Shown here: positions 2,228-63,877 of the stretch, one piece after another
How the letters are laid out: every line of letters starts with the position of its first letter
Numbering within the stretch: the stretch's first letter is position 1
Source: an uncultured Dokdonia sp.
Lineage (GTDB): Bacteria; Bacteroidota; Bacteroidia; Flavobacteriales; Flavobacteriaceae
Direction: 5' to 3'
Assembly (NCBI GenBank): GCA_947503305.1
Contig: CANNDF010000006.1
Coordinates: forward strand, 124,001 to 188,000
DNA: 64,000 nt
The notes under the pieces: generated by a model
Database searches by the model: none
Told to the model about the DNA's origin: nothing
The model's input: only the letters and a program-made list of their open reading frames with translations
Made by a program: the position numbers and the translations under genes

Positions 2228-3454
2228 ATGATAGAGGATACTATAACGAAAGATGTTATTATTATTGGTGGAGGGGCAGCAGGTTTTTTTACAGCCATTA
2301 ACATAGCTACCCAAAGACCAGATTTATCTATTGCAATTCTAGAAAGAGGAAAAGAAGTGCTTACAAAAGTTCGTATTTCAGGTGGTGGACGTTGTAATGT
2401 AACACATGCTGAATTTGATCCTAAGGAACTCTCAAAAAATTATCCTCGCGGAGAAAAAGAATTACTGGGCCCCTTTCATACATTTATGACGGGTGATACT
2501 ATAGCATGGTTTGAAGATCGTGGTGTAACACTAAAAATAGAGGAAGATGGTCGGATGTTTCCTGTCACAGATTCTTCAAAAACGATTATAGATTGTTTTT
2601 TGAATGAAGCAAGGCGATTAAAAATTGATGTGTTAAAAAATCATATCGTACAAGATATCGCTTTCGCGAAAGCGAAATACGAATTAAAAACTTCTCAATC
2701 TAAATATCTCACAAAACATCTTGTAGTAGCTACAGGGAGTAATCCTAAAATATGGAAGCTACTAGAAAAAAAAGGGCATACCATTACACCTGCAGTACCC
2801 TCATTATTTACTTTTAATAATAAAGACAAAAGAATCAAAAACTTAATGGGACTTGCTACCGAAGTAAGTGTAACTGTCCAAGGAGAAACTTTGACATCAG
2901 AGGGACCTTTGCTTATAACTCATTGGGGAATGAGTGGACCGGCTATTTTAAAGTTATCTGCATGGGGTGCTAGAAAGTTGAATGCTCGTAATTACGATTT
3001 TAAGATTAAAGTAAATTGGTTAGTGCATCTTACTGGAGAAGATACTTTAAAATTATTGATTGATCTTAAAAATTCATTTCCTAAACAATCTCCATATACA
3101 TACGCTCAGTTAGGATTGCCCAAACGGTTATGGCAAAATCTTTTGGTTGCCTCTTTAATTAATGAAAAAGAAAAGTGGGCAGATATTAATAAGAAGCAAT
3201 TACAAAAACTTAGTAATGAACTTACAGAAGGAGTTTTTCATATTAATGGGAAGAGTACTTTTAAAGAAGAGTTTGTAACAGCTGGAGGTGTAGATTTAAA
3301 AGAAATAAATTTTAAAACTTTTGAAAGTAAAGTATGTAAAGAATTATATCTCGCTGGAGAGGTGCTTAATATAGATGCAATTACTGGAGGGTTTAATTTT
3401 CAAAATGCATGGACAGGGGGATTCCTTATTGCACAAGCAATAGCAAATAAATAA
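2228..3454 (+). CDS. BaiN/HI0933-family NAD(P)/FAD-dependent oxidoreductase
   Basis: This 408-residue flavoprotein begins with the dinucleotide-binding motif DVIIIGGGAAGFFTA and an acidic strand end (ILERGKE). It then shows the family signature KVRISGGGRCNVTH. GPLLITHWGMSGPAIL in the middle and the C-terminal AGEVLNIDAITGGFNFQNAW segment, which closes the FAD site, are also typical of the YhiN/HI0933/BaiN family. The physiological substrate of most members is unknown, although BaiN is linked to bile-acid reduction, so only an oxidoreductase role is safe. I chose ATG 2228 over the in-frame TTG at 2210 because the promoter overlaps the latter. One copy of the 14-bp palindrome encodes the peptide AFAKA in a loop before LVVATGS. 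The gene is monocistronic and ends at a bidirectional terminator. Confidence 0.9.
   Translation: MIEDTITKDVIIIGGGAAGFFTAINIATQRPDLSIAILERGKEVLTKVRISGGGRCNVTHAEFDPKELSKNYPRGEKELLGPFHTFMTGDTIAWFEDRGVTLKIEEDGRMFPVTDSSKTIIDCFLNEARRLKIDVLKNHIVQDIAFAKAKYELKTSQSKYLTKHLVVATGSNPKIWKLLEKKGHTITPAVPSLFTFNNKDKRIKNLMGLATEVSVTVQGETLTSEGPLLITHWGMSGPAILKLSAWGARKLNARNYDFKIKVNWLVHLTGEDTLKLLIDLKNSFPKQSPYTYAQLGLPKRLWQNLLVASLINEKEKWADINKKQLQKLSNELTEGVFHINGKSTFKEEFVTAGGVDLKEINFKTFESKVCKELYLAGEVLNIDAITGGFNFQNAWTGGFLIAQAIANK
2660..2673. repeat. GCTTTCGCGAAAGC palindrome, copy 1 (intragenic)
   Basis: Exact 14-bp palindrome, extended to 16 bp by flanking C and G. It lies in the BaiN-family gene and is read as Ala-Phe-Ala-Lys-Ala. 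Confidence 0.95.
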
Positions 3455-3483
3455 TCTATTAGCTACAATACCCATTTAAAACT

Positions 3484-3521
3484 AACAACCCTTTTTTATA
3501 GATAATGAAAAAAGGGTTGTT
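3484..3521. terminator. Bidirectional intrinsic terminator
   Basis: A perfect 13-bp stem (ACAACCCTTTTTT at 3485-3497 with its complement at 3508-3520) surrounds a 10-base loop and carries T-rich ends on both strands. It lies between the convergent BaiN-family and S8 protease genes. Confidence 0.85.
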
Positions 3522-3536
3522 TCCTTAATAATTAGA

Positions 3537-12069: not shown

Positions 12070-12083
12070 GCTTTCGCGAAAGC
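12070..12083. repeat. GCTTTCGCGAAAGC palindrome, copy 2 (intergenic)
   Basis: Exact copy in the gap between exbD and the RsuA-type gene, about 70 bases upstream of the latter's -7 element. It is not next to a T-run, so it is not an intrinsic terminator. Confidence 0.95.
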
Positions 12084-14354: not shown

Positions 14355-15958
14355 TAGCTCTTCTAGAAAAGCGACCTATTCTTACGATTGTTCTGTTGGT
14401 ATCAATCTTACTTTTACCTCATTTGGAAGTGCCTAAAATTACGATCATGGAATCTCGTAATTTTATTACTGCTCGAGAGATGGTAACCGATGGGAATTGG
14501 TTACTCCCTACAATGAACGGAGAACCTAGGTATCAAAAACCTCCATTACCTACGTGGATTACAGCAATTTTTGCAATGATATTTGGTATGAAATCAATTT
14601 GGGGTTTACGACTACCAAGTGTACTTATGCTTATGTTATTAGGAGTATTAGGGTATATGCTTTCGCGAAAGCTAAAACTCCCCAAAAATCAAAGCTTACA
14701 GAACGGACTTATTACGATTACCTCTCTTTATATTGTTGCAATTATTTTTGAAGCTCCTTGGGATATTTATGCCCATGGATTTATGCTATTAGGTATTTAC
14801 TTATTAGTCCAATTTTTTCAAAGTACAAGGATCAATTGGGGGATCGTTTTTTTTATTGCATTGTGTATGGGATGTTCTATGATGAGTAAAGGCCCCGTGT
14901 CTCTGTATGCACTTTTCTTACCATTTATTATTTCGTATGGGTGTATATTTAAAATTAATGAACTCAAAAAAAAAATAGTCCCATGTATAGTGATTATGAT
15001 TATAGCTTTTGGAATAGGAGTATGGTGGTATGCCTACACACGTTCTGTTGATCCAATCGCTTTTGAAGGAATTACGGTAAGAGAGACTCAAAAGTGGACG
15101 AGTTATAACGTACGTCCATTTTATTATTATTGGAGCTTTTTTATACAAAGTGGGGTATGGACAATTCCTGCGTTTATAGGATTATTATATCCTTATTTAA
15201 AAACTCGTGTTTCAAATTTAAAGGTATATAAGTTTACATTGCTATGGGCACTAGTAGCAGTTATATTGTTATCTATTATCCCAGAAAAGAAATCTCGATA
15301 TCTGATGCCAGTTTTGATCCCTTTGGCTTTAAATACAGGGTTTTATATAGAATATGTCATTAAGAAATTTAAAACCCTAAAAGATGTAAGAGAGACGATA
15401 CCTATATATTTTAATTTTGGGTTAATTGCACTCCTTTTTATTGGATTAGGGATTACACTTCTTTTTATAAATCAGTTTCAAAATAAGTTATTTTGGGTGG
15501 TAACAACACTGGTGTCTATGGTCTTCTCTGGAGTTTTAATGGTATTAAAACTTAGAAAGAAAAATGGGAAGGCGGTATTTTATATTTTGTTTTTAGGTTT
15601 TTGTGTAGGTACTTTGTTTGGCGCTCCACTTAAAAAAAACCTTATTACAGAAAACTATAATACTTTTTCAGAAGAGCACATGTCTTTACCTATCTATTCA
15701 CTAGAAGGTGTTTCTACAGAAGTTATATGGGCATACGGTAAAAAAATCCCTCAATATAAAAAGGAAAACCTTTCAGAAATATCAGAGGTTACATTTTTAT
15801 TATTAGGCCACCATAGTCTCTTACAAGAGATAGAAGAAAAATTCCCTAACTATACAATACTTGAGATGCCCTCTATAGATTTGAATCCAGTAACCCAGGA
15901 AGATGAGTGGTATCGCAAACGTCTCATGTCTACATTATATAAGCTACAAAGGAAATAA
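14351..15958 (+). CDS. GT39/ArnT-like membrane glycosyltransferase
   Basis: The 535-residue protein has about 11 or 12 hydrophobic helices and a soluble C-terminus, as in ArnT and the PMT family, which move a sugar from a polyprenyl phosphate to lipid A or protein on the periplasmic face. The first periplasmic loop shows ESRNFITAREMVTDGNWLLP followed by NGEPRYQKPPLPTW; the usual catalytic Asp-Glu pair of this loop reads Glu-Ser here. A second loop has SKGPVSLYALF, and PEKKSRYLMPVLIPL is the conserved late motif. The ArnC-like gene upstream would supply the donor. A palindrome copy encodes LSRK in a cytoplasmic loop. Confidence 0.88.
   Translation: MIALLEKRPILTIVLLVSILLLPHLEVPKITIMESRNFITAREMVTDGNWLLPTMNGEPRYQKPPLPTWITAIFAMIFGMKSIWGLRLPSVLMLMLLGVLGYMLSRKLKLPKNQSLQNGLITITSLYIVAIIFEAPWDIYAHGFMLLGIYLLVQFFQSTRINWGIVFFIALCMGCSMMSKGPVSLYALFLPFIISYGCIFKINELKKKIVPCIVIMIIAFGIGVWWYAYTRSVDPIAFEGITVRETQKWTSYNVRPFYYYWSFFIQSGVWTIPAFIGLLYPYLKTRVSNLKVYKFTLLWALVAVILLSIIPEKKSRYLMPVLIPLALNTGFYIEYVIKKFKTLKDVRETIPIYFNFGLIALLFIGLGITLLFINQFQNKLFWVVTTLVSMVFSGVLMVLKLRKKNGKAVFYILFLGFCVGTLFGAPLKKNLITENYNTFSEEHMSLPIYSLEGVSTEVIWAYGKKIPQYKKENLSEISEVTFLLLGHHSLLQEIEEKFPNYTILEMPSIDLNPVTQEDEWYRKRLMSTLYKLQRK
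14659..14672. repeat. GCTTTCGCGAAAGC palindrome, copy 3 (intragenic)
   Basis: Exact copy in the GT39-like gene, read in a phase that gives Leu-Ser-Arg-Lys between two membrane helices. Confidence 0.95.
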
Positions 15959-15961: not shown

Positions 15962-17359
15962 TTATAAGGCTTTTAGAAATTTAGATTTTTTTGTAGAAAT
16001 TATTTCCCAGATCAGATAGCCTATGACTAAAAGATATTCTAGAGCAACAATCCATAAGTTTTCATTAAAACCAGATGCTGTATATGCAGCATAACTTAAA
16101 ATAATTGTAAAACTCCATACAATAGGGAATCTATATTTGGTAAATACACAAAGTAATAATGGTGTAGCTACATACCAAGGATGTACCGTAGTAGATAGTA
16201 AGAAGTAGAATGAGACACCAAGAAGAATAGCTGTAATAAGTTCTTTGAGTGTTCTATTCTTTCTCAAGAATGTAATGAGTAATAAGAATGCAATCACTAT
16301 TCTAGGCAGTATAGGACCTACATCTGCAATAATATTCCAGCCTATAGTCTGAAACCCATACCATCGTATGATGTAATAAATACTGGCATTAAATTCAAAA
16401 TTCTGAAACCAAAGCGCTATAGATGAACCAAAATTTTCGGCAAATTTTCCAGTTAAAAAAGGGGCAAATGTAAGAGCTATCGTTAGGATTACTACTAGGT
16501 AATATGCAGATAGTCTAGGTGCATTTTTTATGCTTTCGCGAAAGCGATACCATTGAATCTGCCCGTTTTGTGACATAAAATATTGAAAAAATAATGGTAA
16601 GAAAAGGAGGGGCAGTAGCTTTACCGAAACGGAAATTGCAAGCATAACTGCACTCCAAATCCATTTGCCTTTATGGAGTAAATACAATGACCAAAGAACA
16701 AAAAATAACATGACAGGTTCAAAATGTAAATTACCTGTCATTTCAATAATGATAAATGGATTAAGCGCATACCAGAAGATATGATATATGGGTAATCCCA
16801 TCTTTTGGAGTAGTTTTTTACCTACTACTATAATACCTATATCTGCTAAAATGATGAGTATTCTAAAAATAATAGCAGATCCTATAATGCTTTTTCCAGC
16901 AAATAATCCAGCAATGGCAAAGCATAATTGATTTATAGGAGGGTAGTTTGTAAAGTGACTCCCATTAAGTGATCCCATCCCGAGATATAACTCTTCTCCT
17001 TGAGAAATAATATCTATAGTACCTGTGTCGTAATAGTGCATCGGTGTTGTGAGATAGGGGTTCAATCCTTCCCATAACATTCGTCCATCCCAAATAAAAC
17101 GATAGAAATCTTGAGATAGATTTGGGATCGCTGGTAAAAATATAAGACGCAATAGAATTGCAATTCCTGTTAATAACCAGAAATCACTCTTGCCTGTTTG
17201 TATTATTTTATAGAAAAGAAAAAATAAGGCACTGTATAGCGATAGTAATTTTATGAAGTCATGACGCACAAGGTCATATGCAAAAACGCCATAAAAAAGG
17301 AAGGATGCTAAGGCAAAAAGTAAAGGATATTTATGATATTTCCAAAGTTGGGCAATCAC
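15962..17359 (-). CDS. Integral membrane mannosyltransferase-like protein (GT-C fold)
   Basis: The 465-residue protein has about 12 helices and no soluble catalytic domain, as expected for a GT-C transferase. The first large loop holds NLSQDFYRFIWDGRMLWEGLNPYLTTP, where the Asp and the Gly-x-NPY motif match bacterial and eukaryotic polyprenyl-phosphate-mannose users of the PIG-M/GT87 kind. Later motifs are NYPPINQL, GNLHFEP and ISVSVKLLPLLFLPLF. It lies last in the minus-strand set and overlaps the CesA-like gene by four bases. The acceptor is unknown. Its 3' end comes within three bases of the convergent GT39 gene, leaving no room for a terminator. Confidence 0.8.
   Translation of the reverse strand: MIAQLWKYHKYPLLFALASFLFYGVFAYDLVRHDFIKLLSLYSALFFLFYKIIQTGKSDFWLLTGIAILLRLIFLPAIPNLSQDFYRFIWDGRMLWEGLNPYLTTPMHYYDTGTIDIISQGEELYLGMGSLNGSHFTNYPPINQLCFAIAGLFAGKSIIGSAIIFRILIILADIGIIVVGKKLLQKMGLPIYHIFWYALNPFIIIEMTGNLHFEPVMLFFVLWSLYLLHKGKWIWSAVMLAISVSVKLLPLLFLPLFFQYFMSQNGQIQWYRFRESIKNAPRLSAYYLVVILTIALTFAPFLTGKFAENFGSSIALWFQNFEFNASIYYIIRWYGFQTIGWNIIADVGPILPRIVIAFLLLITFLRKNRTLKELITAILLGVSFYFLLSTTVHPWYVATPLLLCVFTKYRFPIVWSFTIILSYAAYTASGFNENLWIVALEYLLVIGYLIWEIISTKKSKFLKAL
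16532..16545. repeat. GCTTTCGCGAAAGC palindrome, copy 4 (intragenic)
   Basis: Exact copy in the membrane mannosyltransferase-like gene, read on the minus strand as Arg-Phe-Arg-Glu-Ser in a loop. Confidence 0.95.
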
Positions 17360-18846: not shown

Positions 18847-19538
18847 TATTTAAAACTATATTTAAATATCCAACTTAAAATTTTAACGCCGGCAAAGATA
18901 GCACCTTTTACCGTCCCCGAAACTTTGGAAACTCCTATTCTATTGCGGTATTTTACAGGAACTTCGATATATTTCATTTTTCTTTTTATGACCTTGAGCT
19001 GCATTTCTACCGTCCATCCATAGGTCTTATCTTCCATTTCTAAAGCTAATAGACTCTTGTATTTTATAGCTCTAAATGGACCTAAATCAGTAAATTGGGC
19101 ACCAAAAAAAAGCTTCATTAATGTGGTAGCTAGCCAATTTCCAAATATTTGAGGGGTTGTCATTGAACCGCTTTCGCGAAAGCGTTTATCTCTAGCCCCT
19201 ATTACCATATCATAATCATTTTCTATAATAGGCCCGATAATTTCTGTTAACTGTTCTGGATAATCACTGTAATCTCCGTCTAAGAAAACTACGATATCTG
19301 TAGAGTCTTTGGATGAAGCTATATAATCCATCCCCTTTAAACAAGCGTACCCATATCCTTTTCTTTCTTCTTTTAAAACAGTAGCGCCTCCTTCAAAAGC
19401 AATCTCTTCTGTACGATCTGTAGACCCGTTACTTACTACAATAACTTCTTTTACTAGTTTTGGAATATCTTTAAGAACGTGACCTATAGAATCTTGCTCA
19501 TTATAAGCTGGAATGATCACTTTTATGATGGGATTCAT
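18846..19538 (-). CDS. Family 2 glycosyltransferase (DPM1/dolichol-phosphate mannosyltransferase-like)
   Basis: The 230-residue soluble GT-A protein contains VIIPAYNEQDSIGHVLKDIP, VVSNGSTDRTEEIA, the metal motif FLDGDYSDYPEQL and a late GPFRAIKYKSLLALEMEDKTYGW segment followed by the basic RNRIGVSKVSGT loop. These match bacterial enzymes that load a sugar onto polyprenyl phosphate. It would feed the GT-C mannosyltransferase at the end of the same operon. The stop overlaps the following CesA-like gene by one base. Copy 5 of the palindrome encodes RFRES in the variable loop after VIGARDK. Confidence 0.88.
   Translation of the reverse strand: MNPIIKVIIPAYNEQDSIGHVLKDIPKLVKEVIVVSNGSTDRTEEIAFEGGATVLKEERKGYGYACLKGMDYIASSKDSTDIVVFLDGDYSDYPEQLTEIIGPIIENDYDMVIGARDKRFRESGSMTTPQIFGNWLATTLMKLFFGAQFTDLGPFRAIKYKSLLALEMEDKTYGWTVEMQLKVIKRKMKYIEVPVKYRNRIGVSKVSGTVKGAIFAGVKILSWIFKYSFK
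19170..19183. repeat. GCTTTCGCGAAAGC palindrome, copy 5 (intragenic)
   Basis: Exact copy, 16 bp with flanking C and G, in the DPM1-like gene. It is read as Arg-Phe-Arg-Glu-Ser. Confidence 0.95.
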
Positions 19539-21300: not shown

Positions 21301-21759
21301 ATGGAACAAATAGATATTAAAAAGCACTTGCTAACTCATTGTAAAGACAAATTAGCTCTTAGACGTGCTGGGGTTCAAAAAAATTTAGATTCGGTTATTA
21401 TTTCATTACGAGAAGAGACAAAAAGCTCTGCTGGAGATAAGCACGAGACGGGTAGAGCTATGCTTCAATTAGAAAGAGAGAATGCGGGTAAACAACTTGC
21501 AGAAATTGAAAAATTAGAAGCTATTCTTGAGCGTATATCTTTTGCTGTTACTCCAGGTCCCGTACATTTAGGAAGTGTTGTAAAAACAAGCAAAGCTAAC
21601 TACTTTATGAGTATCCCTGTAGGAGAAGTATATATAGAAAATGAAGCCTACTATGCCATCGGTATAGGATCTCCTATCGGTCAAGTGCTACTTGGGAAAA
21701 GCGAAGGGGATGAGATACGCTTTCGCGAAAGCATATTCAAAATACGTACCGTCTATTAG
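21301..21759 (+). CDS. GreA/GreB-like protein
   Basis: The 152-residue protein has an N-terminal coiled-coil (1-80), including SSAGDKHETGRAMLQLERENAGKQL, and a C-terminal FKBP-like beta domain (about 85-150) with LGSVVKTSKANYFMSIP, IGIGSPIGQVLLGKSEGDEI. This matches a flavobacterial family related to transcript-cleavage factors GreA/GreB. It is often mislabelled 3-oxoacyl-ACP synthase in databases; no thiolase fold is present. It may bind RNA polymerase through the secondary channel, but acidic residues at the coiled-coil tip are not obvious, so cleavage activity is uncertain. A palindrome copy near the end encodes RFRES. Confidence 0.78.
   Translation: MEQIDIKKHLLTHCKDKLALRRAGVQKNLDSVIISLREETKSSAGDKHETGRAMLQLERENAGKQLAEIEKLEAILERISFAVTPGPVHLGSVVKTSKANYFMSIPVGEVYIENEAYYAIGIGSPIGQVLLGKSEGDEIRFRESIFKIRTVY
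21719..21732. repeat. GCTTTCGCGAAAGC palindrome, copy 6 (intragenic)
   Basis: Exact copy close to the 3' end of the GreA-like gene, read as Arg-Phe-Arg-Glu-Ser within the terminal beta strands. Confidence 0.95.
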
Positions 21760-38686: not shown

Positions 38687-39073
38687 TTAACGCTCGGGCT
38701 TAAATATAAAAGCACTGTAAAATTCCTTTTTAATAGCGATAAGCGCACGGTCAGCTTCTAGTCTATTGCGATAATTTCCTACCCAGACCTTATAATTAGG
38801 CGTTTCATATTCTATAGAAGAGGTCCATGTGCCTATTTTATTTCGATACTTCTTTAAGATGGTATTGGCTTGATTTAAATTACCAGAATACAATTGTATT
38901 TTATAGCGATCTGCAAGCTCGTTATCTTTGGTCAATTCTGTTTTAAGGGCTAGAAGTTCTTCTATTTTAGGGTCTTGAGAGATTGTGACTTGAGGAGTTT
39001 GCGCTTTCGCGAAAGCAAAAAAGCCTACAATAACAACGATAGTAACTAGCTTAGTATGAAGGGGTATTCTCAT
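38687..39073 (-). CDS. Exported SPOR-domain protein
   Basis: The 128-residue protein from the ATG at 39073 has a signal peptide with hydrophobic core LVTIVVIVGFFAF and a predicted signal peptidase I site Ala-Lys-Ala before Gln-Thr-Pro. A short helix (LLALKTELTKD) follows, then a SPOR domain (about 52-128: RYKIQLYSGNLNQANTILKKY, YKVWVGNYRNRLEADRALIAIKKEF). SPOR domains bind denuded glycan strands of peptidoglycan at division sites. The last residues of the signal peptide are encoded by a copy of the genome's palindrome. The Met at 39121 would add 16 residues before the signal and is unlikely. Confidence 0.88.
   Translation of the reverse strand: MRIPLHTKLVTIVVIVGFFAFAKAQTPQVTISQDPKIEELLALKTELTKDNELADRYKIQLYSGNLNQANTILKKYRNKIGTWTSSIEYETPNYKVWVGNYRNRLEADRALIAIKKEFYSAFIFKPER
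39003..39016. repeat. GCTTTCGCGAAAGC palindrome, copy 8 (intragenic, at the signal cleavage site)
   Basis: Exact copy read on the minus strand as Ala-Phe-Ala-Lys-Ala. It supplies the Ala-x-Ala motif of the SPOR protein's predicted signal peptidase site. Confidence 0.95.
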
Positions 39074-40683: not shown

Positions 40684-43600
40684 ATGTCATCAAACAAGAA
40701 ATACTGGAAAAGTGTCGATGAGCTTAACGGAAGCCCATTGGTAGAAACACTGAGACAGAATGAGTTTGTAGAAGAAATCCCGACCGATGAGTTTTTAGGT
40801 GATAAAGAAACATTAGAATCTACACAAACCACTCGTCGTGACTTCTTGAAATATGTAGGTTTTTCTACAGCTGCAGCATCGCTTGCAGCCTGTGAAGGTC
40901 CGGTAAAAAAATCAATCCCATATGTAGTGCAACCAGAACAAATTGTTCCTGGAGTTGCAGATTACTATGCATCTACGATTGCAGATGGATTTGATTTTGC
41001 AAGTGTACTCGTAAAGACACGCGAAGGTCGACCTATAAAAATTGAAAATAATAAACTTGCTAAAGCCGGGTATGGAGCAAATGCTCGTGTACATGCATCG
41101 GTATTATCTATGTACGATCAAAATCGTGCACAAGGTCCAAGTAAAGGCGAAGAAGCTGTTTCTTGGAGTGATATAGATAACGAGGTGATGAGCAAATTGA
41201 ATAGTGGAAAACAGGCCGTTCTGTTAACACAAACTTTTGCAAGCCCATCTACAGAAAAACTAATCGCAGCATTTATAGAAAAGTATCCTAATGCCTCTCA
41301 TATAGCATATGATGCTGTAGGAGAAGATTTTGCTCTAGGTGCTTTCGAAGCAAAATATGGAGTACGAGCATTGCCAGATTATGATTTTTCAAAGGCAACT
41401 GTTATTGTCTCTGTAGGAGCAGATTTCTTAGGCGATTGGAATGGTGGTGGTTATGATGCAGGATATGCAAAAGGGCGTATTCCTAAAAATGGTAAGATGT
41501 CGCGTCATATTCAGTTTGAGGCAAATATGTCACTTTCTGGAGCAAATGCAGATGTGCGTATCCCAGCGACACCTTCGCAACAAAAAGCAATTCTAGATGC
41601 ACTTGCAGGAGGATCTACATCAGGACTTCCTGAGAATATTAAAGCAGCGGTAACGACTGCAAAAAACGAATTAAGAGCGGCAGGAGCTTCAGGGATTGTA
41701 GTAACAGGAATACAAAATGTATCATCACAGACCAAAGCTTTAGAGCTTAATGCAAATAGTGATGTAATAGATGTAACTGCTCCTAGACTTACACGTTCTG
41801 GAGACTCAAGTAAGGTGACACAGCTTGTCAATGATATGAAAGCAGGTCGTGTAGGGTTATTGATTATGGCAGGTGTAAATCCAGCATATACCCTTCCAAA
41901 TGCTGCCGATTTTGAAGAAGGACTTAACAATGTAGTTTCTGTAGCATGTTCAATGCGAGCAGATGAGACAGCAAGCAAAGCAACCTATATAGCTCCAACC
42001 CCTCATTATTTAGAGGCATGGGGTGACGTACAGATCAAACAAGGAGAGGTAAGTTTAATACAACCTACAATTCGCCCTTTATTTGATACGAGACAATTCC
42101 AGCAGAGTTTGTTAACATGGATGGAAAGTGATCAATCCTATTATGATTACTTAAAAACGATGATGGCCGAGGCTGGAGTTACTTCTTTTAATAAAGCAGT
42201 GCAGGATGGAGTTGTGATGACAGATGCTTTCGCTAAAGCGGTATCAACTACAGAATCATCAATTACAGCAGATGCAGGTCTTGCTATAGAGGACCTACAA
42301 GGAGATGGTGGTTTTGAATTGACTTTATATACAAAGACATCTATGGGGGATGGTAATCAAGCAAATAACCCTTGGTTACAAGAAATGCCAGACCCTATTA
42401 CAAGAGCAACATGGGATAACTATCTCACTATGTCTGAAGCAGATGCTAAAGATTTAGGGCTATGGTTAGATCGCAGTACATTTTTTACAGAAGCTCGTAA
42501 TGATGCAAATGGAGGATTAAATGGGCGTCTTGCAAATGTTACTGTAAATGGTGTGACATTAGAAAATGTACCAGTAATGGTACAGCCAGGTCAGGCAAAA
42601 AGATCTGTAGGACTTGCACTGGGATATGGAAGAACAACCTCCATTCAGGAAGACATGCAAACAGGGGTGAATGCATACCCGTTAATGCAAAACTTCCAGA
42701 CAACACAAAAGGTTACTATTGAAAAAGCAAGTAATGATATCCATGAATTTGCAGTAATACAATTGCATAATACCTTAATGGGACGTGGTGATATTGTAAA
42801 GGAAACTACGCTTGAAATTTTCAATACAAAAGATAAGCACTATTGGAATGCAGTTCCAGAAGTAACAAAAGCACATATAGAATATGAAGTGACATCTCCA
42901 GAAGTAGATCTTTGGGATTCCTTTGATCGTTCTATAGGACATCACTTTAATCTAGCAATAGACCTTAATGCATGTACAGGATGTGGTGCATGTGTAATTG
43001 CATGTCATGCAGAAAACAATGTGCCTGTTGTAGGAAAATCTGAAGTACGTCGTAGCCGTGATATGCACTGGTTACGTATAGATAGATATTATTCTTCTCA
43101 AGAAACATTTGAAGGCGATAATACTAAAAAAGATAATATATCAGGAATAGGTAGTTCTATGAGTGAGTTTGGAGAGATGGAAGATCCAGCTGCAAACCCA
43201 CAAGTAGCGTTCCAACCAGTAATGTGTCAGCACTGTAATCATGCTCCTTGTGAGACTGTGTGCCCAGTAGCAGCAACATCACACGGACGTCAAGGGCAAA
43301 ATCATATGGCCTATAACCGTTGTGTAGGTACACGTTATTGCGCAAATAACTGTCCTTATAAAGTACGTCGTTTCAACTGGTTCTTATATAATGGTAATGA
43401 TGAGTTTGATTACTATATGAATAATGACCTAGGACGAATGGTTATCAATCCTGATGTAACAGTACGTTCTCGTGGAGTAATGGAAAAATGTTCTATGTGT
43501 ATTCAAATGACACAAAAGACAATTCTTGATGCAAAACGCGAAGGACGTCCAGTTAAAGATGGAGAATTTGCTACAGCATGTTCGAATGCATGTACTTCGG

Positions 43601-46076: not shown

Positions 46077-46772
46077 ATGAAGAATATATTCAAAATAGCT
46101 ATTGTAAGTATTGCGATTGTAAGTTTAATATCTTGTCAAGAAGATACTAAGCCTAACTATCAGTATATGCCTAATATGTATGAATCTGTAGGTTATGAGA
46201 CGTATGGGCAGTATGAAATATTTGACAACGTTACAGGAGGTTCTGAAGCCATGTTACCTGCAGAAGGATCTGTAGCAAGAGGTTGGATGCCTTATGAAAT
46301 AGAGAATAATAATGATGGGTATGCTTTCGCGAAAGCAAACTTAGTAAACCCACTACCTTATTCTGAAGAGTCTGTTGCCGAAGGGAAAGAACTGTATGAA
46401 ATTTATTGCGGTATTTGTCATGGTACAAAGGGAGATGGTCAAGGAACACTGGCTAAGCGTGAAAAAATCCTTGGTATTCCAGCATATAATGATGCAGGAA
46501 GAGCCATTACAGAAGGAAGTATATACCATGTGATGTATTATGGTATTAACTCTATGGGATCCTACGCTTCACAAATGACAGAAGATGAGTTATGGATGGT
46601 AGACCATTATGTAATGTCTTTAAAAGACAAGCTCGATGGAAAAGAAGCACGTGCGTTTGATGTCGTAGAAGCTGTAGTTGAAGCAGAGTTACATACAGAA
46701 GAAGAACATCACGATGCTGGCGGACATGGAGTTGAAGGAGATGCAGGAGAAAATCACGGCGCAGAGCACTAA
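46077..46772 (+). CDS. actE: Alternative complex III monoheme cytochrome c subunit ActE
   Basis: The 231-residue lipoprotein has a lipobox SLISC (Cys20) and a cytochrome c domain with CGICH (about 114-118) followed by GTKGDGQG. The distal Met ligand is probably one of those in NSMGSYASQM (about residues 160-169). It passes electrons from ActA to the oxidase. The C-terminus (about 200-231) is rich in His and Glu (EEEHHDAGGHG). A palindrome copy encodes YAFAKAN just before the heme domain. Confidence 0.93.
   Translation: MKNIFKIAIVSIAIVSLISCQEDTKPNYQYMPNMYESVGYETYGQYEIFDNVTGGSEAMLPAEGSVARGWMPYEIENNNDGYAFAKANLVNPLPYSEESVAEGKELYEIYCGICHGTKGDGQGTLAKREKILGIPAYNDAGRAITEGSIYHVMYYGINSMGSYASQMTEDELWMVDHYVMSLKDKLDGKEARAFDVVEAVVEAELHTEEEHHDAGGHGVEGDAGENHGAEH
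46323..46336. repeat. GCTTTCGCGAAAGC palindrome, copy 9 (intragenic)
   Basis: Exact copy in actE, read as Ala-Phe-Ala-Lys-Ala in the linker before the heme domain. Confidence 0.95.
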
Positions 46773-51207: not shown

Positions 51208-51221
51208 GCTTTCGCGAAAGC
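51208..51221. repeat. GCTTTCGCGAAAGC palindrome, copy 10 (intergenic, 22-bp extended form)
   Basis: Exact core in the gap between the act-cox terminator and the ruvB promoter. Symmetry extends with TTAC and GTAA to a perfect 22 bp (51204-51225), identical to the form inside the DUF2723 gene. Confidence 0.95.
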
Positions 51222-51237
51222 GTAATCACACAATCCT

Positions 51238-51245: not shown

Positions 51246-51271
51246 TGTATCACCGATACGAAGTATGTTTG

Positions 51272-52344: not shown

Positions 52345-53688
52345 GTGAAAGATCAAAAGATAGATTCTGAGCATATCCCTACGGTATCTGTATTTCGATT
52401 TCTCGCCAATGCAAGTAAAATTGTTAAGAATCCACTACCTTTTCATCACACAAATTTTAAAACAAAAGGAGATACTTTCAGATTGCAATTAGGTTTTGCA
52501 AATACTGTGATCTTCTCAAGGGATCCTAATTTTGCTAGATATGCTTTACAAAAGAATCAACGCAATTATACGAAGTCAAAAATTCAAACAGAAGATTTAC
52601 GTAAATATGTAGGAAAAGGGCTTTTAACTTCAGAGGGAGAACTATGGAAAACGCAACGACGTTTAATACAACCTGCTTTTCATAAAAAACAATTAGAACT
52701 GCTTCTAGATACTGTTTTGATAGCTATACAAACAGAGCTCACAAATATTATTTCAAATCGGCCGATAGATATTTTTCCTATTTTTAATGATCTGGCTTTT
52801 CAAACCGTAGCAAAAGCATTGTTTAAATCTGAGATAGACGATACTGTGATAAGAAGGTTACAGTATATTACTGAAGAAGCTCAAAATATGTTGGTTAAAG
52901 AGTTGCGACAACCCTTTAAATCTTGGTATTTTAAATATGGCGGACTTATCAAAAAGCATGTAGCCCTTACTCAGGAAGCAAGAGGAATCCTAAAATTATT
53001 GGTAAAAGAAAGGATTGATAGCAGGCAACGACAAGATGATTTACTAGATATGTTGCTAGATGCGCGCTATGAAGATGGTACTGCTATGGAAGAAGAACAG
53101 CTTATCGATGAGATTCTCATTCTTTTTGTAGCTGGTCATGAGACCACATCAAATGCGCTTACATTTACATTAGAGCTTTTGGCAAGACATCCCGAAGTTC
53201 AAGAAAAGGTATATGAAGAATACGCTTTCGCGAAAGCGAACACGGACAACATCATAGGTTTTATAAAAGGATGTGAATATACCAAGCAAGTGATGGAAGA
53301 GGCAATGCGATTATATCCACCAGCTTATTTTATAGATCGTGTAAACTATGAAGATGATGAGTTTGAGGGGAAGTCTTATAAAAAAGGATCAAACTTACTT
53401 TTTTCAATTATAGAGATACACAAACATCCAGATTTTTGGAAAGATCCAGAACGGTTTAATCCAGAACGTTTTGCAGATAATGCAGGTATGAAACACAAAG
53501 CCTATTTCCCTTTTGGAGCGGGGCCAAGAATGTGTATTGGAAATAATTTTGCCATGTATGAAATGATCCTTGCAATTACTGAAGTGATCAAAACATATAG
53601 GATTTTACCCAAGGATTCACCGATAGAAATTAAGCCTTTGATTACGTTAAAACCTAAAAATGCTATCTTAGAATTTGAACTTCGCTAG
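52345..53688 (+). CDS. Cytochrome P450
   Basis: The 447-residue soluble heme monooxygenase has an I-helix oxygen-activation motif AGHETTSNA (about 263-271), an ExxR motif in MEEAMRL, the PERF motif in FNPERF and the heme-binding loop FPFGAGPRMCIGNN with the thiolate Cys at about 396. It lacks a membrane anchor. It resembles the CYP102-like heme domains and bacterial fatty-acid or terpene hydroxylases, but no reductase or ferredoxin gene is nearby. The substrate is unknown. It starts with GTG, and queG starts only three bases after its stop. A palindrome copy encodes YAFAKAN in the J-K loop region. Confidence 0.92.
   Translation: MKDQKIDSEHIPTVSVFRFLANASKIVKNPLPFHHTNFKTKGDTFRLQLGFANTVIFSRDPNFARYALQKNQRNYTKSKIQTEDLRKYVGKGLLTSEGELWKTQRRLIQPAFHKKQLELLLDTVLIAIQTELTNIISNRPIDIFPIFNDLAFQTVAKALFKSEIDDTVIRRLQYITEEAQNMLVKELRQPFKSWYFKYGGLIKKHVALTQEARGILKLLVKERIDSRQRQDDLLDMLLDARYEDGTAMEEEQLIDEILILFVAGHETTSNALTFTLELLARHPEVQEKVYEEYAFAKANTDNIIGFIKGCEYTKQVMEEAMRLYPPAYFIDRVNYEDDEFEGKSYKKGSNLLFSIIEIHKHPDFWKDPERFNPERFADNAGMKHKAYFPFGAGPRMCIGNNFAMYEMILAITEVIKTYRILPKDSPIEIKPLITLKPKNAILEFELR
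53224..53237. repeat. GCTTTCGCGAAAGC palindrome, copy 11 (intragenic)
   Basis: Exact copy in the cytochrome P450 gene, flanked by TAC on the left. It is read as Ala-Phe-Ala-Lys-Ala in a variable loop. Confidence 0.95.
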
Positions 53689-57494: not shown

Positions 57495-59352
57495 TATAGA
57501 TCGTACACTGCAGCGATTGCTCGCGCAGGAAGATACCGATGGAGATAAAAAAATCACAGTAGAAGATACAGGGCCTAAAGCTTTTGAAATCCTACTGGAT
57601 AACGGAGATATGTATAATATTGAAGGGACATACCATCTTTCAAATTTTCTTCAGGAATTAGCTTTAGAAAAAGCGTTAGGAAAAACTGAGGCCTCCATAC
57701 CATTATCAAATATACAAGAACCCCCTACGGCTCGTGTTTCTAGAATGATCAAAGATTATTTCTGGGATGACTTAACGCGTACGCTCGATAAAGAAGGACT
57801 GGAAAAAAGTGTGGGTGATGATAAAACAGAAGATCAGGTACACAGACTTTATATCCCTTTTTCAGACCATGAAGGACAATCGTATTATAAACAAATAGCC
57901 GCTCAATTTCCAACACTTAATATTGAGATACTACCCGAAAAAATTACACCCTCCTATGTAAAATCTATTAATGATGCTCCTGGAATTTTAGCACTTGCTA
58001 TAGAAAACGGGAAGGGAGTCCCTTTTGTAGTTCCAGGGGGGCGTTTTAATGAAATGTACGGATGGGATAGTTATTTTGAAGGCGTAGGTCTATTATTAGA
58101 TGGACGTATAGACCTTGCAAAAGCTATGGTAAATAATTTTTGTTATCAGATTACTCACTATGGTAAAATCCTCAATGCAAACCGTTCGTATTATTTGACA
58201 CGTACGCAACCTCCTTTTTTAAGCTCTTTTATACGAGAAGTTTATGAAGCAGGCCCTTCTGTAGGAAAAGATTGGTTGGCAGAAGTATTAAAAATTGCCA
58301 TTCAAGAGTATAAAACTGTATGGATGGAAGAAGGACAGCGTTTAACCTCCAATGGGCTTAATCGTTATTATGCACAAGGTATTGGAATTCCCCCAGAAAC
58401 CGAAGAAGGGCATTTTGATGATGTCTTATCCGCTTTCGCGAAAGCGCACTCAGAACCCCTAGAAGATTTTATAATTAAGTATCAGACAGGAGTGATAAAA
58501 GAACCCAAACTAGATATGTATTTTACCCATGATCGAAGTTTGCGGGAAAGTGGGCACGATACCTCATGGCGACTAGATGATATTTGCGCAGATCTTAATA
58601 CTGTAGATATCAATAGCCTTCTGTATAAATACGAAATTGATTTTGCGTACCTTATAGATCACTATTTTGAAGGATCATTTGAAAACATGACTGGTGATGA
58701 CTGGTTACAAAAAGCCAATCATCGAAAAGAATTAATGAATATCTATTTGTGGAATGAAAAAGAAGGTCAGTTTTTTGACTATATCATTACAGAAAAAAAG
58801 CAAACCTATTTTGAGTCGGCATCAAACTATATACCTCTATGGGCAGGTTTATGTGATAAGAAACAAGCAGATAGTATGGTAGAAAGCTTAATGGAATCTC
58901 TCAAAGAAAAAGGAGGGATTGCAGGGACTTCCAGAAAAATGCATGCCAATGTTCCTGAAAATGCGGTGCAACGTCAATGGGATTACCCCAATGGATGGGC
59001 ACCTCATCAAATGATGATATGGCGCGGCCTTAAACACTATGGGTTTACTGAAGAACTTCAAGAACTTATCTATAGATGGTTATGGATGATTACAAAAAAT
59101 GCAGTAGATTACAATGGGACTATTCCTGAAAAGTATGATGTCGTAGCATGTTCTCATAAGGTATATGCAGAGTATGGTAATGTAGGTACCGAGTTTGATT
59201 ATATTACTACAAGTGGGTTTGGATGGATGAATGCATCTTATCAATACGGATTATCCTTGCTTACTACACGTTTGCGTAGTAATTTAGATCTATTAATAGA
59301 TCCAGATGAATTGTTTCATACCCCTATTGTGTCATCTGGAAATAATGTTTAA
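57478..59352 (+). CDS. GH37 trehalase with fungal neutral-trehalase-like N-terminal domain
   Basis: Trehalase hydrolyses trehalose to two glucose. The 624-residue protein lacks a signal peptide, so it is cytosolic. Trehalase signature 1, PGGRFNEMYGWDSY (186-199), and signature 2, QWDYPNGWAP (about 500-509), are both present, as are the catalytic Asp region ESGHDTSWR (about 357-365) and the late NVGTEFDYITTSGFGW region. Residues 11-34 read LQRLLAQEDTDGDKKITVED, an EF-hand-like calcium site with the spacing of fungal neutral trehalases, and the following TYHLSNFLQELALEKALG also resembles them. The PKA/14-3-3 tail of the fungal enzymes is missing. It overlaps the second MFS gene. Confidence 0.92.
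   Translation: MQFKGNIDRTLQRLLAQEDTDGDKKITVEDTGPKAFEILLDNGDMYNIEGTYHLSNFLQELALEKALGKTEASIPLSNIQEPPTARVSRMIKDYFWDDLTRTLDKEGLEKSVGDDKTEDQVHRLYIPFSDHEGQSYYKQIAAQFPTLNIEILPEKITPSYVKSINDAPGILALAIENGKGVPFVVPGGRFNEMYGWDSYFEGVGLLLDGRIDLAKAMVNNFCYQITHYGKILNANRSYYLTRTQPPFLSSFIREVYEAGPSVGKDWLAEVLKIAIQEYKTVWMEEGQRLTSNGLNRYYAQGIGIPPETEEGHFDDVLSAFAKAHSEPLEDFIIKYQTGVIKEPKLDMYFTHDRSLRESGHDTSWRLDDICADLNTVDINSLLYKYEIDFAYLIDHYFEGSFENMTGDDWLQKANHRKELMNIYLWNEKEGQFFDYIITEKKQTYFESASNYIPLWAGLCDKKQADSMVESLMESLKEKGGIAGTSRKMHANVPENAVQRQWDYPNGWAPHQMMIWRGLKHYGFTEELQELIYRWLWMITKNAVDYNGTIPEKYDVVACSHKVYAEYGNVGTEFDYITTSGFGWMNASYQYGLSLLTTRLRSNLDLLIDPDELFHTPIVSSGNNV
58432..58445. repeat. GCTTTCGCGAAAGC palindrome, copy 12 (intragenic)
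   Basis: Exact copy, 16 bp with flanking C and G, in the trehalase gene. It is read as Ala-Phe-Ala-Lys-Ala. Confidence 0.95.
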
Positions 59353-59370: not shown

Positions 59371-60540
59371 ATGACTTCATACCAAAACTCCATAGAACTG
59401 CTTAAAAAGGTTGCTACAGAGCGAGGCTTTCTGGCTAGTGCAAATGATATTACAAATTATAGGCGAGTATGGGCAAGAGATGGTGTAATATGTGGTCTTG
59501 CAGCCTTATTAGATGGAGATAAAATCCTTATAGAAGCATTTAAACAAACTTTAATAACGTTAGGAAATCACCAGCACGAACGAGGGATGATCCCTTCCAA
59601 TGTACATTTTGATGGAGATACTCCTTCTATAAGTTTTGGAGGATTAGCAGGACGTGTTGATACTGTAGCTTGGTTTATAATAGGTGTCTGTCAGTATGCA
59701 TATAAAACTGGTGATCATCATTTTTTTAATTCCTATAAACCACATATTAAAAAAGGACTTGCATTACAGCATAGTTGGGAATATAACGATGGTGATTTAA
59801 TGTATGTGCCTCGTAGCGGTAATTGGGCAGATGAGTATCCTACACAAGGATTTATACTATATGATCAATTGCTTCGTGTGTGGGCATTACGATGTTATTT
59901 ACATTTTGAGAAGGACGAAGGGCTTCAAAAAAAAGAACAAGCAATAACAAAAAAAATCATAGATAATTACAAAAAAAATAGCCAAGTTAAAAACCCTTAC
60001 CATCCTAAAGCAATCCAAACATTAGAACCTACAGCTTATTGGGTTGCATCACTAGAACCAGCTGGATATCAAACACAATTTGATGCCTTTGCAAATAGCC
60101 TGGCATTGTTACTTAAGATAGGTTCAAAAGAAGATCAAGAGCAACTTATTAGGTATAGCGATGCACTATGTGCTAAATTACCCTTAGGCTTATTACCTGC
60201 TTTTTGGCCAGTGATTAACAAAGAAGACAGTGACTGGAAATGGCTAGTCAATAACTGTAAATATGAATTCCGTAATTACCCATATGAGTTTCATAATGGA
60301 GGGACATGGCAAATGGTTAATGGATTTTATGGGATAGGACTTCTTGCAAATAATGCTTTCGCTAAAGCAGAAAATATCCTTCATCAGATTAATGTATTAA
60401 ATGAAAAAGAGGAGGGGAGTTTTTATGAAAATTTTAATTCAAAAACTGGCGATCCTAATGGAGTGCCTTTCTGCGCTTGGAGTGCAGCGGGGAGTGTGCT
60501 TTTAGAACAATCATTACAAAATAATAAACTGCTTACATAG
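59371..60540 (+). CDS. (alpha/alpha)6-barrel glycosidase of uncertain family (GH100-like or debranching-type)
   Basis: The 389-residue cytosolic protein shows RRVWARDGVICGLAALL (about 27-43), GLAGRVDTVAWFIIGVCQY and MYVPRSGNWADEYPTQGF. This Asp-containing pattern resembles both GH100 neutral invertases (RDFV, GRVTPVDS) and amylo-alpha-1,6-glucosidase-like domains. The catalytic Asp is probably in WARD, with a second acid in NWADEYP. Because a PfkB kinase follows and an SLC45 symporter leads the operon, sucrose cleavage to glucose and fructose is my preferred reading, though maltooligosaccharide hydrolysis remains possible. The variant palindrome near residue 330 encodes NAFAKAE. Confidence 0.65.
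   Translation: MTSYQNSIELLKKVATERGFLASANDITNYRRVWARDGVICGLAALLDGDKILIEAFKQTLITLGNHQHERGMIPSNVHFDGDTPSISFGGLAGRVDTVAWFIIGVCQYAYKTGDHHFFNSYKPHIKKGLALQHSWEYNDGDLMYVPRSGNWADEYPTQGFILYDQLLRVWALRCYLHFEKDEGLQKKEQAITKKIIDNYKKNSQVKNPYHPKAIQTLEPTAYWVASLEPAGYQTQFDAFANSLALLLKIGSKEDQEQLIRYSDALCAKLPLGLLPAFWPVINKEDSDWKWLVNNCKYEFRNYPYEFHNGGTWQMVNGFYGIGLLANNAFAKAENILHQINVLNEKEEGSFYENFNSKTGDPNGVPFCAWSAAGSVLLEQSLQNNKLLT
60355..60368. repeat. One-base variant GCTTTCGCTAAAGC of the palindrome (intragenic)
   Basis: Same G to T change as at 42226, again synonymous and again read as AFAKA. It lies in the (alpha/alpha)6 glycosidase gene. Confidence 0.8.
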
Positions 60541-61544: not shown

Positions 61545-61563
61545 CAAGTCAACTATACAATCT

Positions 61564-63843
61564 ATGAAAAAAGACAGTAAACGTCGAGAAGCACTTATAT
61601 ATCATGCAAAACCTAAGCCTGGTAAAATAGAAGTCATCCCAACAAAGAAATATGCCTCCCAACGAGATCTTGCCCTTGCGTATTCCCCTGGAGTTGCAGA
61701 ACCGTGTTTGGAGATAGAAAGAGACATAAAAAATGTCTATAAATATACCGCAAAAGGAAATCTAGTAGCTGTAATTTCTAATGGAACAGCAGTATTAGGG
61801 CTAGGAGATATCGGACCAGAAGCCTCCAAGCCTGTTATGGAAGGCAAAGGATTGCTTTTTAAAATCTTTGCAGGAATAGATGTATTTGATATTGAAGTAG
61901 GAACTAAAGATGTAGATGCTTTTATCGAAACTGTCAAGAATATCGCTCCTACTTTCGGAGGTATTAATCTGGAAGATATAAAAGCTCCTGAGGCCTTTGA
62001 GATAGAGCGTAGACTTAAAGAAGAGCTCAATATTCCTGTAATGCATGATGATCAACATGGTACTGCTATTATCTCTGCAGCAGCATTGCTCAATGCATTA
62101 GAACTAGCAGATAAAAAAATAGAAGATGTTCGTATCGTGGTAAGTGGAGCAGGCGCAGCAGCAGTGTCGTGTACACGACTATACAAAGCCTTTGGAGCAC
62201 GTGGAGAAAATATTGTCATGCTAGATAGTAAAGGTGTAATTAGGAAAGACAGAGAAAATCTTTCAAAGGAAAAAGGAGAGTTTGCTTCTGCTAGAAAAAT
62301 AGACACTCTAGAAGAGGCTATGGTAGATGCCGATGTGTTTGTAGGCCTTTCTATTGCAAATATTGTTTCACCAGCGATGGTAGAAAGCATGGCCAAAGAT
62401 CCAATTGTTTTTGCAATGGCAAACCCTGATCCAGAAATCGCCTATGATCTTGCGTGCAGTGTACGTAAAGATATTATTATGGCAACGGGTCGCTCTGATC
62501 ATCCTAATCAAGTAAATAATGTACTAGGATTTCCATTTATTTTCAGAGGAGCTTTGGATGTACGCGCAACAGGAATTAATGAAGCAATGAAAATGGCAGC
62601 GGTAAAAGCGCTTGCACAATTGACAAAAGAGCCTGTACCAGAACAAGTAAATATAGCCTATGGAGAAACTCGTTTTACATTTGGTAAAGATTATATTATT
62701 CCTAAACCATTTGACCCTAGGTTAATTACTACTGTTCCTCCCGCTGTAGCAAAAGCGGCTATGGATAGTGGGATAGCACAAGAGCCAATCCAGGATTGGG
62801 ATAAATATAATGATGAGTTACTTGAACGTCTGGGAGATGATAATAAAATTGTACGATTACTATTAGATCGAGCACGCACTGATCCAAAACGTATTGTATT
62901 TGCAGAGTCAGATCAGCTTGATGTATTAAAGGCAGCTCAGATAGTGTATGAAGAAGGGATTGCAATTCCTGTATTATTAGGGAATAGAGATGTAATTTTA
63001 GAACTTAAAGAAGAGATTGATTTTGATGCAGATGTAGAAATAATAGATCCAAAATCTAAAGAAGAAATAGATCATGTAAATAAATATGCAGATATCTATT
63101 GGAAATCACGTAAGCGCAAGGGAATTACCCAGTTTGAAGCAAGAAAGTTATTACGTCAGCGTGATTATTTTGCAGCAATGATGGTTAGTGAAGGAGATGC
63201 CGATGGGATGTTGTCAGGGCATAGCAGGAGCTATCCTTCTGTTGTAAAACCATTGTTGGAAGTAATAGGACCTGCAAAAGGAGTACAGAAAGTCGCTGCT
63301 ACCAATATAATGATTACTTCAAGAGGGCCATTATTTCTTTCGGATACATCTATAAATATAGAACCTACAGCCAAGGAACTTGCAAAAATTGCACAAATGA
63401 CGGCCACTACTGTTAAAATGTTTGGATTAGAACCTGTCATCGCAATGACATCGTATTCTAACTTTGGTTCTTCTACAAATGATAAAGCAACTCGAGTGAG
63501 AGAGGCCGTAGCATATTTGCATCGTTATTATCCAGAACTTATTGTAGATGGAGAGTTACAAGCAGACTTTGCTTTGAATCCAGAAATGCTTAAAAGTAAG
63601 TTTCCATTCTCCAAATTAGCAGGTAAAAAAGTAAACACTTTAGTTTTTTCAAATATAGATAGTGCAAATATTACCTATAAGATGGTCAAAGAACTTGAGA
63701 AAGCCGATAATATTGGACCTATTATGCTAGGAATGCGTAAACCTGTGCATGTATTACAGTTAGGGGCTAGTGTAGACGAGATGGTACATATGGCTGCTAT
63801 TGCGGTTATAGACGCCCAGAAGAAAGAAAAACATGGAATGTAA
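61564..63843 (+). CDS. maeB: NADP-dependent malic enzyme fused to a phosphotransacetylase domain
   Basis: The 759-residue MaeB-type protein decarboxylates malate to pyruvate with NADP. The malic domain (1-430) has LALAYSPGVAEPCLEIE, TAVLGLGDIGPEASKPVMEGKG, KAPEAFEIERRL and the nucleotide site VVSGAGAAAVSCTRL. The C-terminal phosphotransacetylase-like domain (about 435-759) has DGMLSGHSRSYP and IMITSRGPLFLSDTSI; in MaeB proteins it usually regulates the enzyme through acetyl-CoA rather than catalysing transfer. The gene is monocistronic, with its own promoter, and is followed by ruvA, an order common in flavobacteria. Confidence 0.95.
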   Translation: MKKDSKRREALIYHAKPKPGKIEVIPTKKYASQRDLALAYSPGVAEPCLEIERDIKNVYKYTAKGNLVAVISNGTAVLGLGDIGPEASKPVMEGKGLLFKIFAGIDVFDIEVGTKDVDAFIETVKNIAPTFGGINLEDIKAPEAFEIERRLKEELNIPVMHDDQHGTAIISAAALLNALELADKKIEDVRIVVSGAGAAAVSCTRLYKAFGARGENIVMLDSKGVIRKDRENLSKEKGEFASARKIDTLEEAMVDADVFVGLSIANIVSPAMVESMAKDPIVFAMANPDPEIAYDLACSVRKDIIMATGRSDHPNQVNNVLGFPFIFRGALDVRATGINEAMKMAAVKALAQLTKEPVPEQVNIAYGETRFTFGKDYIIPKPFDPRLITTVPPAVAKAAMDSGIAQEPIQDWDKYNDELLERLGDDNKIVRLLLDRARTDPKRIVFAESDQLDVLKAAQIVYEEGIAIPVLLGNRDVILELKEEIDFDADVEIIDPKSKEEIDHVNKYADIYWKSRKRKGITQFEARKLLRQRDYFAAMMVSEGDADGMLSGHSRSYPSVVKPLLEVIGPAKGVQKVAATNIMITSRGPLFLSDTSINIEPTAKELAKIAQMTATTVKMFGLEPVIAMTSYSNFGSSTNDKATRVREAVAYLHRYYPELIVDGELQADFALNPEMLKSKFPFSKLAGKKVNTLVFSNIDSANITYKMVKELEKADNIGPIMLGMRKPVHVLQLGASVDEMVHMAAIAVIDAQKKEKHGM

Positions 63844-63863
63844 TCGGGATTTTTTTTAAGTAC

Positions 63864-63877
63864 GCTTTCGCGAAAGC
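63864..63877. repeat. GCTTTCGCGAAAGC palindrome, copy 13 (intergenic)
   Basis: Exact copy between maeB and ruvA. Flanks TAC and ATA give partial symmetry. No T-run follows. Confidence 0.95.

Follow-up and report, generated by a model that had tools for sequence, protein, structure and literature searches.

We analyse a window of 64,000 bp from the genome of an uncultured Dokdonia sp. (G000:C6:124001-188000, within an assembly, G000, of 4,264,867 bp in 57 contigs) and the 14-bp perfect palindrome scattered through it, which we find to be the near-invariant core of a maintained site of about 50 bp. A first-pass annotation of the window had listed 13 exact copies, and every start position it gave proved exact. 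In 100 dinucleotide-preserving shuffles of the window the count of 13 was never attained, and allowing up to two mismatches adds just two further sites, both of the form GCTTTCGCTAAAGC. Each strand of the motif ends in GCGAAAGC, a sequence known as an unusually stable single-strand DNA mini-hairpin. The sites are listed with the open-reading frames (ORF) around them and their state in seven Dokdonia relatives that are syntenic with much of the window, 53 of the 91 pairings (13 exact sites by seven relatives) being alignable; strand is assigned to the one-mismatch copies only.

2660..2673, exact copy within ORF 2210-3454(+)
12070..12083, exact copy between an ORF ending at 11984 and an ORF starting at 12173
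14659..14672, exact copy in ORF 14351-15958(+); exact in G397, the sole relative aligned, in a weak alignment
16532..16545, exact copy in ORF 15962-17359(-); G397, the sole aligned relative, has a two-mismatch form, ungapped within the motif
19170..19183, exact copy in ORF 18846-19538(-); matched exactly in all four aligned relatives
21719..21732, exact copy close to the end of ORF 21301-21759(+); matched exactly in all four aligned relatives, the flanks having diverged
29330..29379, example of the symmetric site of about 50 bp: 14-bp core and an 18-bp arm 5' of it on each strand
29348..29361, exact copy in ORF 26910-30203(-); matched exactly in all six aligned Dokdonia
39003..39016, exact copy; matched exactly in all seven relatives
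42226..42239, + strand, one-mismatch copy GCTTTCGCTAAAGC in ORF 40684-43749(+); synonymous change GCG to GCT
46323..46336, exact copy in cytochrome c gene 46077-46772(+); matched exactly in two of seven relatives
51208..51221, exact copy that precedes the next gene's conserved start (a mechanically called ORF, 51188-52294, would take it in); matched exactly in all five aligned relatives
53224..53237, exact copy in ORF 52345-53688(+); matched exactly in five of seven relatives
58432..58445, exact copy in ORF 57478-59352(+), where the sequence is variable and gapped; matched exactly in none of five aligned relatives
60355..60368, + strand, one-mismatch copy GCTTTCGCTAAAGC in ORF 59371-60540(+); no match in the three relatives that align there
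63864..63877, exact copy 3' of ORF 61564-63843(+); matched exactly in all three aligned relatives

The claim that the motif occurs far above chance is borne out at larger scale: 66 exact copies were counted on both strands of 464 kb of G000, for which Markov models of order 3 or 4 expect 0.0002-0.0003. The whole genome holds 570 exact copies, a number far from background (a reversed-pattern control gives 0), and 668 sites with at most one mismatch, that is, 98 beyond the exact ones. Nor are the copies confined to the window, since all 18 Dokdonia genomes searched, five of which fall below the quality threshold, carry 369-905 copies each. The avoidance of rimP-nusA-infB and coxBA noted in the first-pass annotation carries no weight, because the 9.7-kb gap between 29348 and 39003 lies inside the normal spread of gaps (up to 15.1 kb besides one of 63.5 kb).

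Conservation among the relatives is concentrated on the motif. Of the aligned pairings, 40 of 53 are exact; starting from the relatives, 63 of their exact sites can be aligned with the window, where 40 are exact and seven of the 23 failures belong to the single locus 42226. Background 14-mers in the same alignments are exact in 1,792 of 37,229 cases (4.8%). Column identity is 0.78-0.99 in the motif versus roughly 0.5-0.8 outside, with higher values two bases ahead of the motif (0.86) and three bases past it (0.91), all of these conservation figures being somewhat generous because alignment favours matches. The copy at 42226 is exact in all seven relatives, and its mismatch is therefore probably a loss in the window's own strain.

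Some positions are also kept between genera. The site at 29348 is exact, in the same codon, in 3 of 3 Nonlabens genomes, and that at 46323 appears as the 13/14 form GCTTCCGCGAAAGC, again in the same codon, in all three Nonlabens, in genus g191 and in Dokdonia G397 and G402. The site at 51208 lies at the T-tract of a hairpin judged by eye to be terminator-like; Dokdonia, Nonlabens G242 and g191 all have a copy in that interval, two of the three next to a terminator-like T-tract, and in the related genus g145 the terminator-like hairpin is kept and the motif is absent. Genus g191 further carries a copy near 58432, in the same gene, and one in a place similar to 63864. This sharing is incomplete: 63864 is absent in Nonlabens G242 and in g145, and 29348 is not exact in g191 or g145. 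The sites at 39003, 42226 and 53224 were not alignable to Nonlabens.

The motif changes mostly by substitution. Twenty-four of the 36 non-exact pairings are gap-free in the motif, with 1-7 substitutions (seven of these pairings being locus 42226), and the remaining 12 are gapped, at a handful of loci that include the coding site 58432. The tiny mobile palindrome suggested in the first-pass annotation, which would spread by insertion, could account for hundreds of identical copies and for the gapped pairings; it is made less likely by the gap-free majority, by alleles at 16532, 42226, 46323 and 53224 that differ by substitution with no gap within the motif, by exact same-codon copies in two genera and by the even spacing described below, and we regard it as very improbable.

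Near copies are rare, 570 of the 668 G000 sites at one mismatch or fewer being perfect. When 39 one-mismatch variants are folded on the palindrome, the outermost position is hit five times, the second 13, the third and fourth once each, the fifth six and the sixth 13, and the central GC is hit by none of the 39. The core would carry about 29.7 bits if every copy were perfect; 12.9 bits would be needed to locate the sites in G000 and 11.8 in G397. Outside the palindrome, the inner hexamer TCGCGA is near expectation in G000 (36 observed versus 31.7) and raised in G397 (70 versus 43.1), and the half-site GCGAAAGC behaves likewise (5 versus 3.5 in G000, 14 versus 4.6 in G397); the excess in G397 may represent decayed sites. 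The hexamer counts speak against a plain TCGCGA methylation site in G000, with G397 differing. They also bear on the possibility that an orphan DNA methyltransferase with biased mismatch repair makes and keeps an iterated palindrome of the kind known in cyanobacteria as highly iterated palindrome 1 (HIP1). A perfect palindrome at even density that changes by substitution would fit such a process, as would the hexamer excess in G397, and cyanobacterial alternate HIPs accompany matching methyltransferases, according to the part of PMC4390886 consulted. The near-background hexamer in G000 argues otherwise, as do 14 bp plus arms, long for such an enzyme, and mismatches that are not concentrated at the outermost base, and we consider this explanation improbable.

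Conservation spans the full 14 bp and extends beyond them, which makes the site wider than the first-pass annotation had it. On both sides of the core the preferred bases are T (-3), A (-2) and C (-1). Each strand is poor in C on its 5' side, between about -18 and -3, where the C frequency is about 0.05-0.07 versus 0.17. The C-poor arms are found in coding and non-coding sites alike, in both Dokdonia and Nonlabens (measurements cover 108 coding and 87 non-coding sites, Nonlabens, and 97 strictly non-coding sites). A triplet periodicity of T in the arms was dropped as a feature because codon structure could cause it and it was not significant in the 97 strictly non-coding sites (permutation p 0.31 for T, 0.06 for A). 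Folding compared with shuffles is no better for the 14-mer (z -0.2) and better for a 20-mer (z -2.3), as a palindrome predicts.

The site is over-represented between genes: of 276 sites in 1.244 Mb from Dokdonia, 111 fall outside ORFs, though ORFs, as called by a crude procedure that misses genes cut at the ends of stretches, cover 90.5% of bases. Stricter rules class 217 sites as coding, with all three frames used, 97 as non-coding and 64 as ambiguous or at edges. That codon or peptide usage (AFAKA, LSRK or FRES, depending on frame) produces the motif as a side effect might be suspected from the AFAKA frame, taken by 109 of the 217 clearly coding sites; the 97 strictly non-coding sites and the use of all three frames contradict it and leave it a negligible probability.

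The copies are by far more evenly spaced than chance would have them. Gap statistics were taken over the first 100 listed sites each of G000 and G397, setting aside gaps above 20 kb (six in G000). The coefficient of variation (CV) of the G000 gaps is 0.46, against a null mean of 0.985 and a minimum of 0.695 in 20,000 simulations, and two gaps fall below 1 kb versus 12.7 expected; in G397 the CV is 0.74 (p 0.0008), with four gaps below 1 kb versus 22.8 expected. Across 464 kb of G000, one of 64 gaps is shorter than about 1.3 kb. Twenty samples of 20 kb, spread round the G397 chromosome (a single contig), contain 129 sites in 400 kb, with 3-9 per sample (dispersion index 0.30, Poisson p 0.001), and no regional trend with respect to replication origin or terminus (ori/ter) is visible in them. 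Motif-free stretches of 63 and 76 kb do occur.

Such spacing is one of several properties that suggest a chromosome-organising site, at which a putative dimeric nucleoid protein would anchor or bend DNA every 4-7 kb, with the 18-bp arms within its footprint. A palindrome lacks polarity, short gaps are few, and the symmetric 50-bp footprint and the positions kept between genera would be explained no less well by an organiser; the near-expected frequency of half-sites outside the palindrome in G000 makes the dimer site look like the unit, and phage contigs, as shown below, may carry the site. Several observations pull the other way: G397 shows no regional pattern at its 20 sampled points, stretches as long as 63 and 76 kb can lack the motif, g145 survives with almost no copies, the sequence is far more exact than known nucleoid-protein sites, and ParB_N occurs once per motif genome in the 11 tested, leaving no Noc-like paralogue, other families not having been searched. 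We regard an organiser as a serious possibility, if a doubtful one.

Among 397 genomes of the family, 80 have at least one exact copy and only six have more than 19: G000 (570), G206 (857), three Nonlabens (578, 664 and 609) and g191 (408). The remaining genomes hold 0-19, and density in carriers is about one per 3.6-7.8 kb. In several genomes the low counts are clustered; all 16 exact copies of G076 lie within C3:32-110 kb, and a pair of copies 933 bp apart recurs in G076, G078, G087, G101 and G215. These clustered copies look like blocks imported from motif carriers.

Several observations accompany this distribution. At an Aquimarina locus (L070:115-5022) the same 933-bp pair lies inside an efflux-protein gene adjoining a multicopper oxidase gene, and the block bearing the pair, present also at G144:C15:33637-37029, seems to have spread from motif carriers into other genera. 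A survey for alternative motifs requested 40 stretches, yielding 35 full stretches of 20 kb (three from motif genera) and five short contigs; in the 32 full stretches from non-motif genera no other dispersed palindrome was as frequent, a survey that sparse motifs would escape. A six-copy candidate in L272 was rejected as a tandem repeat within one stretch, and TTTCGCGAAA, seen three times in L304, proved to be part of one stretch of G102, C1:61.7-111.9 kb, in which all copies listed for that genome lie, several of them decayed. Two 14-mers were each seen twice, in L260 and L275. In L260, from a non-carrier genus, GTTCCACGTGGAAC occurs at 5692 and 7609 and resembles parS.

Matches in viral collections probably arise mostly by chance, with a few real sites among them, because few have the flank consensus and their arms are richer in C than those of the host: among the matches listed, 132 sites lie in viral loci, 10 of them with C at both -1 and T at both -3 positions, and arm C content per 30 nt is 6.8, versus 2.1 in 53 host sites. 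L172, with integrase and tape-measure matches, has copies at 2735 and 6842, the latter with full flank consensus, and IMGVR_UViG_3300039191_000362 (L159, L176, L181) has three distinct copies in 38 kb, its L176 part sharing sequence with L172.

The largest gap in G000, a motif-free block of 63.5 kb (G000:C1:326-390 kb, L294-L297), is probably an integrated mobile element resembling an integrative and conjugative element (ICE), because the 40 kb of it examined contain several ORFs that by eye are tyrosine-recombinase-like, together with a coupling protein of a conjugative type IV secretion system. Its lack of copies would suit a self mark protecting DNA against a nuclease or recombination enzyme, as a Chi-like signal or an exemption from defence against invaders. 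The density resembles that of Chi, the GT-rich, C-poor 5' flanks on both strands are of a kind held to favour RecA, and the three copies on one 38-kb viral-collection contig would also be consistent with such a mark. Chi is nevertheless short and read from one side, and the half-site is near expectation in G000, if raised in G397; we judge this reading unlikely.

The history of the motif was examined with a tree of two proteins only, NusA-InfB, in which deep branches are weak. Dokdonia, g191 and g145 form a fully supported group separate from the others; the branch of Nonlabens is long and its placement poor. Constraining Dokdonia, Nonlabens and g191 to a clade that excludes g145 is rejected (approximately unbiased (AU) test, p 0.008), and a clade of all four genera is not (AU p 0.147). 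A clade of Dokdonia and g191 alone is likewise not rejected (p 0.268). The best-supported account of these sequence comparisons is that the motif would have been inherited from the common ancestor of Dokdonia, Nonlabens, g191 and g145, and would have decayed in g145 after its maintenance there stopped; a single origin with loss in g145 is the simplest reading of the tree plus the shared positions, and two origins without loss are disfavoured because they leave those positions unexplained.

The two g145 genomes hold 6 exact and 17 one-off copies (G329) and 9 and 20 (G144), totals of 23-29. Among the other non-carriers compared, four have totals of 0-2, and G076, G287 and G051 have 24-28, of which only those of G076 were located, in one block. 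At least three G144 copies, on C15 at 33637, 36083 and 37016, are not relics, because their spacings of 2446 and 933 bp match the imported block of G076 and G078. Of six exact g145 loci, one has a Dokdonia ortholog in the compared sequence, where the motif is absent, and the other five have none. The flank consensus is largely absent from these six exact g145 copies, with C at -1 in 4 of 12 flanks and T at -3 in 4 of 12. The probable relic status of the g145 copies rests on the counts, on their scatter in G329 and on the 51208 locus. Near copies in G329 and G144 are scattered, the commonest one-off form being GCTTCCGCGAAAGC. No changed dialect of the motif was seen in 48.6 kb of g145.

The motif is, then, a maintained site in which the whole palindrome appears to be the unit, and a putative clade-specific protein, most likely a symmetric dimer, would read it in full. 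Of the four explanations offered in the first-pass annotation, chromosome organisation and an uptake tag survive, and a mobile palindrome and plain TCGCGA methylation are disfavoured. As the best single mechanism we propose, tentatively and at rather less than even confidence, a self-DNA tag of the uptake-sequence kind, with a chromosome-organising site close behind. DNA bearing the motif would be taken up or recombined preferentially during natural transformation, and mutations toward the optimum would be copied through the population until each fragment of a few kb bears one tag. The excess of information (29.7 versus 12-13 bits) and the rarity of near copies suggest such a drive toward a receptor optimum, and even spacing, the lack of a regional trend in the G397 samples, intergenic excess, change by substitution, C-poor arms, low counts in g145 and absence from the ICE-like gap are all in keeping with a tag. 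ComEC is present in 20 of 20 genomes tested.

A self-DNA tag also faces several difficulties. The presence of ComEC does not track the motif in those 20 genomes, nor does the type IV pilus, since PF00437 (type IV pilus/type II secretion ATPase) is over cut-off in so few carriers (two of seven motif genomes tested, next to three of 13 others). None of the known uptake sequences is a palindrome, and they occur about once per 1-1.5 kb; the perfect palindrome here has no non-palindromic directional core. Conservation at the same positions across genera is deeper than the turnover of a tag requires, phage contigs are able to carry full sites, and no report of competence in Nonlabens or Dokdonia was found in the literature searched. 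In G000 the sole T2SSE/PilB-type ATPase match over cut-off (G000:C1:622010-623128) lies inside a motif-free gap of 27.7 kb (602550-630280), and to judge by that location the gene may be acquired. The missing pilus ATPase is not decisive, given the transformation gene set of Riemerella, a member of the family. In the part of PMC8459023 drawn on here, 3,000 transposon mutants of R. anatipestifer were screened: those hit in ComEC, in DprA or in a helix-hairpin-helix protein no longer transformed, and transformation was reduced when a SusC-type outer-membrane protein was hit; Riemerella columbina, in what PMC7965970 presents on the point, prefers its own DNA. No gene for the reader was found, PF00437, PF03772 and PF02195 failing to track the motif in the genomes tested and other families not having been searched.

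Taken more broadly, it is rather probable that a putative dimeric protein that only the Dokdonia-Nonlabens-g191 clade possesses, g145 having lost it, reads a symmetric site of 50 bp every 4-7 kb and either structures the chromosome regardless of ori/ter or makes of the site the first palindromic, pilus-independent DNA self-tag, a system previously undescribed in Bacteroidota.

Dokdonia and Nonlabens are studied marine proteorhodopsin-bearing bacteria, and an uptake tag or a chromosome anchor would be directly testable in them and useful for their genetics. Highly iterated exact sequences are rare and usually betray a process that acts on the whole genome, such as uptake, recombination, methylation or chromosome packing. 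The present motif appears older than two genera, exact amid changing surroundings and nearly gone in the related g145, and the contrast between carriers and g145 provides a ready comparative design for finding the reader gene. Nothing on the motif in Dokdonia, Nonlabens or Flavobacteria was found in the literature covered, which excludes most subscription journals, and a word search of the main text of PMC4390886 finds no mention of Bacteroidetes or Flavobacteria.

Each known class of iterated or protein-bound site shares some properties with this one. Like matS, Noc-binding and SlmA sites, it is a palindrome of similar length at which a protein dimer is expected; unlike them, it has many more copies, far less degeneracy and no regional bias that could be seen. 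Chi offers a similar density and a GT-rich 5' flank, but is short and directional, whereas here the whole palindrome appears to be the unit. The Neisseria DNA uptake sequence (DUS) and the Haemophilus uptake signal sequence (USS) likewise occur in hundreds of exact copies with an even spread, intergenic enrichment, change by substitution, sharing among related genera and extended flanks; the present motif differs from them in being palindromic and sparser, the type IV pilus ATPase is below cut-off in 5 of 7 carriers tested, and a role in uptake is here proposed only. The parallel with HIP1 (GCGATCGC) and alternate HIPs that the first-pass annotation drew is apt as phenomenology, these too being exact, genome-wide iterated palindromes that are clade-specific and rare or absent in some members, as the consulted part of PMC4390886 describes them. 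The unit itself differs, being longer (14 bp and 18-bp arms versus 8 bp) and sparser (one per 3.6-7.8 kb versus about one per kb in that same part of PMC4390886), with an inner hexamer near background in G000 and one-off variants that are not biased to the first and last bases.

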